From an uncultured Bacteroidota bacterium (GTDB taxonomy: Bacteria; Bacteroidota; Bacteroidia; Flavobacteriales; Flavobacteriaceae), in assembly GCA_902608795.1 (NCBI GenBank), contig CACLPI010000009.1:1-45070 (forward strand): DNA of 45,070 bases. Reading direction: 5' to 3'. The notes below the pieces were generated by a model that was not told where the DNA came from, did no database searches, and worked only from the letters and a program-made list of their open reading frames with translations. This document shows positions 14,270 to 17,529 of the stretch, in pieces. Numbering within the stretch: position 1 is the first letter of the stretch; the number at the start of each line of letters is the position of its first letter. The position numbers and the translations under genes are program-made.

Positions 14270-14620
14270 ATGAGCTCATTAGTTAAATTTGTAGAAGAAC
14301 AATTAGTTGAGGCGAAAAATCACCCATCCTTCAGTTCTGGTGATACAATTACTGTTTATTATGAAATTAGAGAAGGTGATAAAAAAAGAACTCAGTTTTT
14401 TAAAGGAGTTGTATTACAAAAAAGAGGTTCAGGTTCAACAGAAACATTTACCATCAGGAAAATGTCTGGTTCAATCGGGGTTGAAAGAATATTTCCAATA
14501 AACTCTCCTACCATACAAAAAATCGAAGTCAATAAGAAAGGTAAAGTAAGAAGATCACGCATATTCTATTTTAGGAATTTGACCGGTAAAAAAGCAAAAA
14601 TTAAAGAAAAAAGAAATTGA
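14270..14620 (+). CDS. rplS: Large ribosomal subunit protein bL19
   Basis: A 116-residue basic protein with the L19 features: F.SGDTITVYYEIREG, 'RTQFFKGVVLQKRGSG', 'ETFTIRKMSGSIGVERIFPINSP' region and RRSRIFYFRNLTGK near the end. L19 sits at the 30S-50S interface. It follows trmD as in most bacteria but has its own promoter and leader. The downstream region holds a structured RNA candidate. Very high confidence. Confidence 0.97.
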   Translation: MSSLVKFVEEQLVEAKNHPSFSSGDTITVYYEIREGDKKRTQFFKGVVLQKRGSGSTETFTIRKMSGSIGVERIFPINSPTIQKIEVNKKGKVRRSRIFYFRNLTGKKAKIKEKRN

Positions 14621-14829
14621 TTTTTAGTTCTTAACAATTGTTAATAACAGTAGTTTACAACCGGTGAACATCTTTTTTTTTAAATTTTATTTGAATTCTA
14701 AACTTTTATTTTAAATTAGTATCAGGATTTGTTTTAGTGGATCTTTTGGGATTAACTTAACATCTTTTTAGATGAAACAAATTCAAGAACGTTCTTTGAC
14801 AAATTACTTACAAGTTTTGGATAAAACCA

Positions 14830-15240
14830 AAACTAAAAATTTAGAAAGAAACTAATTTTTAAAATGTGTGCCTGCACAATTTTAAAAAAAAAGACTTTCT
14901 CACCTAATGGTTCATTCCAATGGTGTCCTTAAAGACTAATCCCGATAAGGAAAAACCTTATTTAATGTAAAGTAGCCTAGTGTGAAATTAGTAGCCTAGA
15001 GTAAAATATATAAATAAATAAGGTATAGTTTATCGAAAGATATTCTGTGGAAGTAAGTAATTAGGAATCAGTTGTGAAAAGTTCCTTGGAATAGAGTAAC
15101 AAAACGATTCCAAGAATAGCGATAATGTTTAACAACTTAATTCTTAGGAAAAAAGTAATTCGGAAACGATAGTCAAACATAATCGATATTTGGAAAGCCG
15201 TACAATAGTAGAAATACTGTCAGTGCGGCTTTCATTTTTT
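14830..15240 (+). ncRNA. Candidate structured non-coding RNA, unidentified
   Basis: The 698 bases from 14621 to 15318 hold no coding frame, yet contain many good hairpins. They include AAAAT/ATTTT plus TGTG/CACA (14861-14883), CACC..TGG/CCA..GGTG (14901-14925), ATAAGG/CCTTAT (14945-14961), TATC-GAAA-GATA (15031-15042, GNRA loop), CTTGGAAT/ATTCCAAG (15085-15114), and the terminator at 15193-15240. Two copies of GTAGCCTAG (14972-14980 and 14991-14999) lie between them. The 5' end is not resolved; a TTTGAC at 14795-14800 may belong to the promoter. I looked for and did not find the conserved cores of tmRNA, RNase P RNA, SRP RNA or rRNA. The class is unknown; it could also include a long 3' UTR of rplS. 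Confidence 0.5.
15193..15240 (+). terminator. Strong intrinsic terminator
   Basis: GAAAGCCGTAC (15193-15203) pairs with GTGCGGCTTTC (15223-15233) over 11 base pairs with one wobble. Inside is a second 6-bp stem (15205-15210 with 15215-15220) capped by a GAAA tetraloop. Six T residues follow at 15235-15240. It ends the candidate RNA and isolates icd from upstream transcription. Confidence 0.8.
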
Positions 15241-15283
15241 AATAACTATTCATCATTTATTCTTTTATTTTATAGTCATTTTT

Positions 15284-15291
15284 TATATTTG
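15284..15291 (+). promoter_or_regulatory. icd promoter -7 element
   Basis: TATATTTG matches TAnnTTTG and lies 27 bases before the icd ATG, giving a short leader of about 20 bases. It follows the terminator directly, so icd begins a new transcription unit that probably continues into murQ. Confidence 0.45.
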
Positions 15292-15318
15292 ATTCACTAA
15301 CTATTCAGAAGATAATTA

Positions 15319-17529
15319 ATGTCGAAAATCATATACACAATGACAGATGAAGCACCCGCTTTAGCTACTGTTTCACTATTACCAATACTACAAGCTTTTT
15401 CTAAATCATCAGGTGTCAAATTTGAAAGTAGAGATATATCATTATCATCCAGAATCCTCGCTACTTTTAATGATTTTTTAGGTACTAAAGTTAAATATGA
15501 AAATGATTTAGAGTTTTTGAGTAAACTTGTAAAAGATCCCAACGCTAAAATTATCAAATTACCAAATATTAGTGCATCAATTCCGCAGCTTAAAAAGGCT
15601 ATAACTGAACTTCAAAGTCAAGGATATAATATTCCTAATTATCCAGAGAAAGTAGAAAATGATAATGACTTGATTATCAAATCAATATATGACAAGATTA
15701 AGGGGAGTGCAGTTAATCCAGTATTAAGAGAAGGGAACTCTGACAGAAGAGTCCCAAAAGCTATTAAAAATTATATAAAATCCAATCCACACAAGCTTGG
15801 AAAATGGAATAAAGATTCTAGAACTCACGTTTCATCAATGCATAAAGGTGATTTTAGAAATAACGAAACTTCCTTAACCAGTGATAAACACGAACTTTTA
15901 AATATATATCACTATAATAAAAATAAAAAGAAGAGCATACTCAAAGAAAATATAACTGTACATAAGAAAGCTATTATAGATTGTAGTTACATGAGTATTT
16001 CTGCATTGCAAGATTTTATTGATAATCAGATTCTAGAGTGCAAAGAAGAAAATATGCTTTTATCATTACATCTTAAGGCATCAATGATGAAAGTAAGTGA
16101 TCCGATAATTTTTGGTCATGTTTTGAAAGTATTTTTCAAAAATTTTATAAGAAATAATAACACAGTTCTTAATGAAATTAATGTGAATTTTAATAGTGGT
16201 TTATCTAACGTATTTGAAAAATTGAATCAGCTAGATATAGTAAGGAAGGAAAAATTAGTTAATGAAATACAATTAGATATTGAAAATGGACCTGATTTAG
16301 CGATGGTAAATACTGAAAAAAATATAACAAATTTTCATATTCCTAGTGATGTTATAATAGATGCATCGATGCCTGCTATGATAAAAAGTTCTGGAAAGAT
16401 GTGGGATAAAAGTGGTGAATTAAGAGATACTAAAGCTATAATTCCTGATAGTAGCTACTCTACAATATATCAAGCAACAATAGATTTCTGTAGAGAAAAT
16501 GGACAATTTGATCCTGCACTGATGGGAACAGTTCAAAATGTTGGGCTTATGGCTAAAAAAGCTGAGGAATATGGCTCTCATGATAAAACCTTTGAAATTA
16601 AAGACGATGGTAAGATATGTGTAGAAACTAAAGATGGTAAAATTTTATTTACTCACAATGTTAAGAAGGGTGATATTTGGAGAATGTGCCTTGTTAGAAA
16701 TGAAGCAACTAAAGACTGGGTAAAATTAGCAGTCGAAAGAGCAAAATCTACAAGCTACCCTACTGTTTTCTGGTTGGATGAAAATAGATCACATGATAAG
16801 CAGCTTATAAAAGTAGTTAAAGAAGAACTTAAAAAATTTGATACTTCTGAGTTAAATATCCAAATACTTTCTCCTTATAAAGCAACTTTGTTCACACTTA
16901 AGGAAATTAAGAAAGGGAATAATGTAATTTCAGTTTCTGGAAATGTTCTTAGGGATTATTTAACCGATCTATTTCCGATTTTGGAATTAGGTACTAGTGC
17001 TAAAATGTTATCAATTGTTCCTTTAATGAACGGAGGTAAGCTTTTTGAAACAGGTGCTGGTGGATCTGCACCGAAACATGTACAACAATTAATTGATGAA
17101 AATCATTTAAGATGGGATTCTTTGGGTGAGTTTTTAGCAATTTCTGTTGCATTGGAAAATATTGGTAGAACAAATATTAAAAGTAAAATCCTTTCAAAAT
17201 GCCTTTCAAAAGCAATTGAAAAATTATTGTTAGAAGAAAAATCCCCATCAAGAAAAGTAGGTGAAATTGACAATAGAGGTAGTCATTTTTACCTTGCATT
17301 GTATTGGGCTGAATATTTATCAAAACAAAACGAAAATATTGAACTAAAAGATGAATTTGAAATGGTATATAATCTACTTTCAAAAAGTGAGAATCAAATA
17401 ATTAACGAGATTGATTCTACTCAGGGTTGCAAGGTTGATCTGGAAGGATATTATAATACTAATGATGAAATTACTAAACAAATAATGAGACCATCCCACT
17501 TATTTAATGAGATTATTGATAATATATAA
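15319..17529 (+). CDS. icd: NADP-dependent isocitrate dehydrogenase, monomeric type
   Basis: The enzyme oxidises isocitrate to 2-oxoglutarate and CO2 in the citric acid cycle, producing NADPH. The 736-residue length is that of the large single-chain type. Typical motifs are LPNISASIPQLKKAI at 81-95, GSAVNPVLREGNSDRR at 129-144 (isocitrate and metal site), and FDPALMGTVQNVGLMA and FWLDENRSHDKQLIK further on. The N-terminal 'IIYTMTDEAPALAT' confirms the start. The stop is only 8 to 11 bases before the proposed start of murQ. High confidence. Confidence 0.96.
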   Translation: MSKIIYTMTDEAPALATVSLLPILQAFSKSSGVKFESRDISLSSRILATFNDFLGTKVKYENDLEFLSKLVKDPNAKIIKLPNISASIPQLKKAITELQSQGYNIPNYPEKVENDNDLIIKSIYDKIKGSAVNPVLREGNSDRRVPKAIKNYIKSNPHKLGKWNKDSRTHVSSMHKGDFRNNETSLTSDKHELLNIYHYNKNKKKSILKENITVHKKAIIDCSYMSISALQDFIDNQILECKEENMLLSLHLKASMMKVSDPIIFGHVLKVFFKNFIRNNNTVLNEINVNFNSGLSNVFEKLNQLDIVRKEKLVNEIQLDIENGPDLAMVNTEKNITNFHIPSDVIIDASMPAMIKSSGKMWDKSGELRDTKAIIPDSSYSTIYQATIDFCRENGQFDPALMGTVQNVGLMAKKAEEYGSHDKTFEIKDDGKICVETKDGKILFTHNVKKGDIWRMCLVRNEATKDWVKLAVERAKSTSYPTVFWLDENRSHDKQLIKVVKEELKKFDTSELNIQILSPYKATLFTLKEIKKGNNVISVSGNVLRDYLTDLFPILELGTSAKMLSIVPLMNGGKLFETGAGGSAPKHVQQLIDENHLRWDSLGEFLAISVALENIGRTNIKSKILSKCLSKAIEKLLLEEKSPSRKVGEIDNRGSHFYLALYWAEYLSKQNENIELKDEFEMVYNLLSKSENQIINEIDSTQGCKVDLEGYYNTNDEITKQIMRPSHLFNEIIDNI

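Follow-up and report, generated by a model that had tools for sequence, protein, structure and literature searches.

A structured RNA gene with a boxA-like signal between rplS and icd in Flavobacteriaceae

The rplS-icd gap and its elements

The window, the whole 45,070-nt stretch of flavobacterial DNA analyzed here, carries a 698-nt gap (14621-15318) between rplS and icd, which the initial annotation had singled out as the only long one; a comparison with the window's ORF list agrees. That annotation placed in the gap a structured transcript of about 400 nt, with a 5' end near 14830 and a terminator of its own. Among ORFs of ≥20 amino acids (aa) the longest in the gap has 39 aa, except for an 86-aa frame that runs antisense to icd and overlaps the gap edge; two ATG-started + strand ORFs (22 and 27 aa) exist in the window. 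The features of the locus are as follows.

14270-14620, + strand: rplS (ribosomal protein L19), the upstream neighbor (Pfam PF01245, E 3.2e-42)
14631-14672, + strand: upstream element, a perfect palindrome TTAACAATTGTTAA (14631-14644) followed by GTTAATAAC / GTTTACAAC / GGTGAACATC repeats (genus and family conservation)
14690-14719, + strand: putative promoter, TTTG (14690-14693), an 18-nt spacer and TAAATTAG (14712-14719), a variant TAnnTTTG -7 box (from sequence)
14724-15240, + strand: structured noncoding RNA, a predicted transcript of ~517 nt (covariation; fold z -6.33)
14725-14784, + strand: 5' hairpin before boxA, GGATTTGT / ACAAATTC with inner hairpins (covariation analysis and fold)
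14790-14801, + strand: boxA-like antitermination signal CGTTCTTTGACA, core GTTCTTT at 14791-14797 (sequence and position)
14802-15062, + strand: long-range helix P1, AATTACTTAC (14802-14811) with GTAAGTAATT (15053-15062) (pairing in every cell; changes on both sides in 2 of 10 pairs)
14843-14900, 14901-14925 and 15026-15047, + strand: stems of domain I, closed by P1
15064-15111, + strand: P6 domain, GGAATC / GATTCC with an inner hairpin (compensatory changes)
15115-15190, + strand: P7 domain, AATAGCGATAATGT / ACATAATCGATATT with inner stems (compensatory changes; weak match to covariance model R1 at 15113-15240, 31.2 bits)
15193-15240, + strand: terminator hairpin GAAAGCCGTAC / GTGCGGCTTTC with an inner stem, then a T run (fold and covariation analysis)
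15284-15291, + strand: -7 box TATATTTG of a probable separate icd promoter (frequency of TAnnTTTG before icd)
15319-17529, + strand: icd (monomeric isocitrate dehydrogenase), the downstream neighbor (Pfam PF03971, 1131.6 bits)

From 5' to 3', palindromic and promoter-like elements are followed by the 5' hairpin, boxA, a multibranched domain of ~240 nt closed by P1, P6, P7, and the terminator. The minimum-energy fold of 14724-15240 reaches -130.5 kcal/mol, compared with a mean of -92.0 for shuffled sequences (z -6.33, 0 of 100 shuffles), and a shorter stretch, 14830-15245, has a z of -5.86. The opposite strand also folds well (z -5.1), as expected because the sequence is strongly paired; we assign the RNA to the + strand from its promoter-like boxes, its boxA and the T run that follows the terminator. 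Since the promoter-like boxes and the 5' hairpin place the predicted 5' end at ~14724, the RNA would begin about 100 nt earlier than had been supposed, and its predicted length grows from ~400 to ~517 nt.

The hairpins noted earlier are borne out by the comparison of the minimum-energy fold with shuffles, and the two GAAA loops are located in TATCGAAAGATA (15031-15042) and TCGGAAACGA (15160-15169). The double-stem terminator is likewise real (15193-15233 plus the T run); a fixed-rule terminator scan omitted it, presumably because its outer loop exceeds the 8 bases that the rule allows. A direct repeat of GTAGCCTAG does exist (copies at 14971-14988 and 14990-15007, 19 nt from start to start), but has not been kept in this version: at the site relatives carry GTAACCCAG, GTAACCTGG or similar words, and alignment A3 has a deletion there in five loci (L010-L014). 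Because relatives alter or lose the repeat, we set aside a functional role for it. The initial annotation had overlooked boxA, the long-range helix and the elements upstream of the RNA.

Within the genus, AACAATTGTTAATA of the upstream element occurs in 15 of 16 loci and, with one change, in the other (L004). Beyond the genus, we picked 103 candidate RNAs by boxA similarity (8 of 12 positions or better) plus a terminator, and 67 of these selected loci contain a palindrome-like match, as against 0.0005 per shuffled upstream sequence. The palindrome-like element was also seen in six of eight loci examined for a displaced RNA, the sequence shown for the other two being too short to judge. The -7 consensus TAnnTTTG is taken from PMC9723704, and a box of the form TAnnTTAG, TTTA, TTTG or TTGG lies 60-130 nt 5' of boxA in 85 of the 103 selected loci, compared with 28% in shuffles.

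The palindrome TTAACAATTGTTAATA (14631-14646) is rare, with 1 to 5 matches per genome at ≤1 mismatch in the five genomes searched, both strands of one site being counted. By eye, a second site stands just 3' of rpmH (L34), beside a carB-like ORF, in three genomes (G000:C1:48997, L310; G078:C1:1587636, L311; G209:C1:2539846, L312), and the palindrome is therefore common to the ends of two ribosomal-protein genes. A replication origin at the upstream repeats was considered and dropped: the skew of the window shows no clear turn there, and 12 of the 21 searched relatives with complete genomes have, by eye, an rRNA operon 8-35 kb downstream of rplS that faces it, which was also counted against this reading. 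Several draft contigs end near the rRNA operon downstream of rplS.

Covariation and distribution of the RNA

A DNA search over 149 relatives found the genus locus in 16 of 21 same-genus genomes, including the window's own; the five misses are drafts of 57-68% completeness, one of which (G019) gave a 36-nt match only. In every one of the 16, rplS precedes the RNA, and icd follows it in 15, L005 being cut off by a contig end. Across 14 of these loci the consensus structure comprises 110 pairs, 28 of them with changes on both sides, compared with 15.1 in shuffled alignments. Paired cells amount to 97.1%, whereas shuffled alignments give 92.5% and slid partners 35-41%, and none of the shuffles attained the observed figures. 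Insertions and deletions among the genus sequences keep no reading frame (by eye).

The same organization recurs across the family. In an alignment of 39 sequences, 86 of 124 pairs changed on both sides (49.6 in shuffles), both-side-changed cells numbered 585 (173 in shuffles), and 92.1% of cells were paired, compared with 82.5 in shuffles and 39-43% with partners slid. The layout is that of the window (boxA, P1 with its multibranched domain, P6, P7 and terminator, ~440 nt from boxA to terminator). This alignment (A4), anchored on boxA, holds 39 of the 43 class-1 sequences; L034, L069, L188 and L196 were omitted from it, and L210 in addition from A5, as outlying by the analyst's eye. Family covariation refers to class 1 only, a slightly shorter class 2 (31 sequences) standing outside it. 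The both-side changes and the slid control weigh more than the shuffle test, because related sequences inflate the latter, and the slid control itself favors a structure derived from the same alignment. Compensatory changes at both genus and family level make a structured RNA gene in the rplS-icd gap close to certain, and they strongly support the initial annotation's view of a structured RNA with a terminator of its own.

Individual elements differ in how they vary. Covariation within the genus says little about the 5' hairpin, because seven of its eight outer pairs never vary. The 5' strand of P1 begins directly after boxA in both the window-genus and the family forms; in the window its partner strand follows 241 nt further on, and an equivalent helix of different sequence is present across the family. 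P1 itself varies little (changes on both sides in 2 of 12 pairs in the family and 2 of 10 in the genus), and a search for its complement is weak at any one locus, shuffles reaching the score in 0 to 45 of 60 cases; its support comes from the recurring offset and the pair counts. The body of the RNA changes fast, and the terminator stem AAAGCCATrTCA is nearly invariant across genera (A4 columns 474-520; 11 of 13 pairs never vary), an oddity that exceeds the needs of a plain terminator.

To follow the RNA further we used R1, a covariance model of P7 plus the terminator. It matches 94 of 149 Flavobacteriaceae genomes, nearly always in one copy, and the predicted RNA length across carriers in the family is roughly 400-550 nt. 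A class-wide draw that included some Flavobacteriaceae yielded 3 of 149: one Flavobacteriaceae genome and two marginal matches at 37-38 bits, comparable to the false positives L173 and L203 (38-40 bits, both picked by hairpin pattern). Under strict genome filters R1 reports neither the window genome nor G007, and the window copy scores 31.2 bits in a local search, below the false positives. Because R1 misses the window genome, we assign the window RNA to the family by its position, upstream elements, boxA, P1, layout and a bridging locus, L034 (genome G214; R1 67.7 bits), which by eye combines a genus-type GTGTGCCTGCACAA hairpin with a family-type P1 and terminator.

Regular expressions alone found a boxA-like word plus a terminator hairpin 3' of rplS in 66 of 90 rplS-anchored loci, some of them fetched twice. 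Nine Flavobacteriaceae loci have an rplS-icd gap of 175-290 nt, with no room for the RNA; R1, run on eight of these nine genomes, gave no match below E 0.059. No such RNA is present at 15 rplS loci from other families of the order, of which L150 and L154 could be read for 563 and 123 nt only. In one of these other families, at L147 (G091), a dimeric-type isocitrate dehydrogenase seems by eye to start ~810 nt after rplS.

A pattern scan of named genomes gave at least 119 stretches, including ones from Gelidibacter, Algibacter, Maribacter, Zobellia, Cellulophaga, Polaribacter, Tenacibaculum and Kordia; none of the matches listed has Flavobacterium in its record title. With stretch ends not discounted, rplS lies upstream in 94 of the 119 matches listed, icd lies downstream in 90, and a boxA word is present in 80 (60, 62 and 51, respectively, among the first 80). 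Four (L167, L182, L223 and L233) are hits to the reverse strand of a nearly palindromic hairpin next to icd, and in three (L178, L247 and L259) neither gene is shown and the match lies 6-575 nt from the stretch end. Matches in Clostridium (L173), Ruminococcus (L190), Halalkalibacter (L203) and Corynebacterium (L212) have none of the three features and were taken as chance hairpins. As far as sampled, the RNA gene is restricted to Flavobacteriaceae.

Relation to neighboring genes and known RNA classes

The RNA is separable from either neighbor, which argues for a separate gene and not for an icd leader or an rplS tail. By eye, rplS is no more than ~1 kb from it in 86 of 94 carriers, 2.1 kb away in G175, and on another contig in seven. 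That closeness, and the lack of a clear rplS terminator before the RNA in the window, would suit a 3' extension of the rplS mRNA, for example an L19-binding feedback element. We consider such an extension very improbable: in six of the seven carriers with the RNA on another contig, more than 2 kb upstream of it was read and contained no rplS (a mere contig break is possible in G071, because the match starts 495 nt from the contig end); relatives such as L017, L018, L027, L029, L036, L037 and L040 show an rplS terminator hairpin ahead of the RNA (by eye); and the known L19-Flavobacteria leader (RF03130) sits upstream of rplS in four of the seven loci scanned (L017, L018, L027 and L029). The window's own rplS gave no RF03130 match at gathering score. 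A very long cis-regulatory leader of icd, in which boxA and alternative folding would decide whether polymerase passes through the terminator into icd, has more in its favor and is still rather unlikely. The gene is downstream of the RNA in most carriers, including all eight loci examined for a displaced RNA and G265, where rplS is 0.8 Mb away; the RNA thus stays beside icd wherever it has clearly gone from rplS (6 of 6, plus G265), which leaves room for a link to icd, and the suhB mRNA leader offers a precedent for a regulatory boxA (PMC5725501). A leader, however, would always stand directly upstream on the same strand, and in G060 and G203 the RNA adjoins rplS with icd 6.0 and 5.4 kb away behind two opposite-strand genes, while in G078 a 190-aa ORF intervenes. 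Moreover, icd has a promoter-like box of its own after the terminator: of 63 loci called RNA-bearing, 48 have TAnnTTTG ≤150 nt from icd, and so do 13 of the 16 others, some of which do carry the RNA, as against 11% in shuffles (repeated loci and L005 having been excluded beforehand). The near-invariance of the terminator stem also speaks against a leader. An ORF of 187-190 aa, pentapeptide-repeat-like by eye, stands just before icd in L303 (1113-1685, G078) and L300 (6276-6839, G060).

Nor does the RNA match a known class in Rfam. An Rfam search found no family at gathering score in the gap and no match at E up to 5, with OLE, GOLLD, ROOL and the other Rfam 15 families included. In seven related loci no family reached threshold in the gap, and the six matches below threshold (E 0.6-4.9; HrrF, 26.7 of 77 bits; Thr_leader, 22.7-24.1 of 55; mir-392, 21.9 of 62) map to the rplS terminator or to the 3' end of the RNA. 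The size of the RNA and its single copy per genome are of the order expected of a housekeeping RNA, and a diverged 6S, tmRNA, RNase P RNA or SRP RNA is nevertheless scarcely credible. RNase P RNA (RF00010), tmRNA (RF00023) and 6S-Flavo RNA (RF01685) gave no match in the gap and have their own copies elsewhere in the same genome (G000:C8:38056-38354, G000:C10:16538-16928 and G000:C5:972-1082, respectively), so that the initial annotation was right to discount the first two, whose genes are on other contigs; SRP RNA gave no match in the gap in the Rfam scans. Among 25 genomes, carriers and non-carriers alike, the tmRNA and 6S-Flavo models match all 25 (6S-Flavo over cut-off in 19), and the 6S model RF00013 matches none, nor does it match a Bacteroides control. 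A second tmRNA-like match, over cut-off at 49.3 bits, was seen in G203 (G203:C1:772761-773172), and a Flavo-1 RNA (RF01705) adjoins rplS in L027 (864-945). We judge it unlikely that the locus makes a base-pairing regulatory sRNA or a small-protein mRNA whose structure serves stability only. The fast-changing sequence and the 22- and 27-aa ORFs would be compatible with such a product; the absence of any longer gap ORF than 39 aa (the icd antisense frame aside) and of a frame preserved by the genus indels goes against a small protein, and a conserved multi-domain fold would be unusual for a base-pairing sRNA.

The boxA-like signal and a model for synthesis of the RNA

The core consensus of boxA is a GYTCTTTRA-like sequence in nascent RNA, and the window's CGTTCTTTGACA agrees with it and resembles the rRNA leader box of the same family. 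GTTCTTT is invariant in 16 of 16 genus loci, which were chosen without regard to boxA, and all 8 loci that R1 located, again without use of boxA, contain it as well; boxA percentages from the 103 candidates are biased, because boxA similarity was a selection criterion. Several other carriers have variants, such as ACGTTCTATCG and ACGTTATTTG. In 29 of 30 Flavobacteriaceae rRNA leaders (several of them from one genome, repeated loci and L005 again excluded beforehand) GTTC[A/T]T[A/T] lies 114-184 nt before the 16S start motif. These leaders carry AAGTTCATTRACATATTG-like words, the copy in L124 reading AGTTCTTTAACATATTGG, and the RNA's ACGTTCTTTATATAATTG is built like the rRNA-leader box. Sequence and position together suggest a boxA function for this box of 7-12 bases.

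In rrn operons the layout is boxB-boxA-boxC, with boxA and boxC spaced by 18-19 nt in Enterobacteriaceae, and for E. coli a boxA-bound antitermination complex has been proposed to hold boxC until the trailer emerges (PMC10250234). Compared with the boxA-bearing rRNA leader described there, our RNA is alike in having a hairpin and a GTTC[A/T]TT box, with the 5' strand of a closing helix of long range starting immediately after the box; unlike it, no rRNA follows, the RNA has its own terminator, and the spacing from box to helix is shorter than 18-19 nt. That the 5' strand of P1 directly follows boxA suggests that an antitermination complex may hold this strand as proposed for boxC.

We favor, at a probability of roughly 0.6, a new, family-restricted class of trans-acting RNA whose transcription and folding borrow the rRNA antitermination machinery. 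A single-copy noncoding RNA gene would be transcribed from its own promoter after rplS, and the hairpin and boxA in the nascent RNA would be read by the rRNA antitermination complex (NusB/S10 and partners). This complex would keep RNA polymerase going through an untranslated, Rho-sensitive transcript, and it would retain the P1 strand next to boxA until the other strand, ~240 nt downstream, had been made, in the way suggested for the helix between 16S leader and trailer. The finished RNA would end at the intrinsic terminator and, once folded, would work in trans, probably as part of a ribonucleoprotein. We regard a trans role as likely and boxA-dependent biogenesis as plausible. More tentatively, and with somewhat less than even odds in our estimation, the RNA could be a family-specific RNA machine, possibly a ribozyme or a ribonucleoprotein scaffold, made like a miniature pre-rRNA in that a boxA-recruited Nus-factor complex would both protect its transcription and chaperone the closing of P1.

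Large structured RNAs common to much of a bacterial family tend toward important roles and are seldom newly discovered; R1 detects this one in 94 of the 149 Flavobacteriaceae genomes sampled, yet no Rfam 15 family matches it. Our literature search, made mostly without subscription papers, found no published description of the RNA or the locus. Its boxA provides a direct handle, making it testable whether the rRNA antitermination complex aids the transcription and folding of another long noncoding RNA. BoxA is also known in CRISPR leaders. If the more tentative RNA-machine reading is true, this would be, to our knowledge, the first stand-alone noncoding RNA, rRNA and CRISPR transcripts aside, to depend on the Nus-factor antitermination machinery.

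Other systems share single traits with the RNA. The suhB leader, in which boxA has a regulatory effect (PMC5725501), and other mRNA boxA sites likewise place boxA outside rRNA; here, in contrast, a noncoding RNA ends before the next gene. OLE, GOLLD and ROOL are also large multi-domain RNAs with an elaborate fold (PMC12286853), and differ from the gap RNA in that it has no Rfam match, was found in Flavobacteriaceae only, carries boxA at its 5' side and changes quickly in sequence. 6S-Flavo RNA (RF01685) is likewise flavobacterial, noncoding and present in one copy per genome, but has 108 model positions and lies elsewhere in the genomes. Finally, the Rfp RNAs of Flavobacterium psychrophilum, compared here by description only (including Rfp18) as the main text of PMC9723704 gives no sequence, resemble our RNA in lacking an Rfam match and in that some of them are structured and conserved outside that species (PMC9723704).
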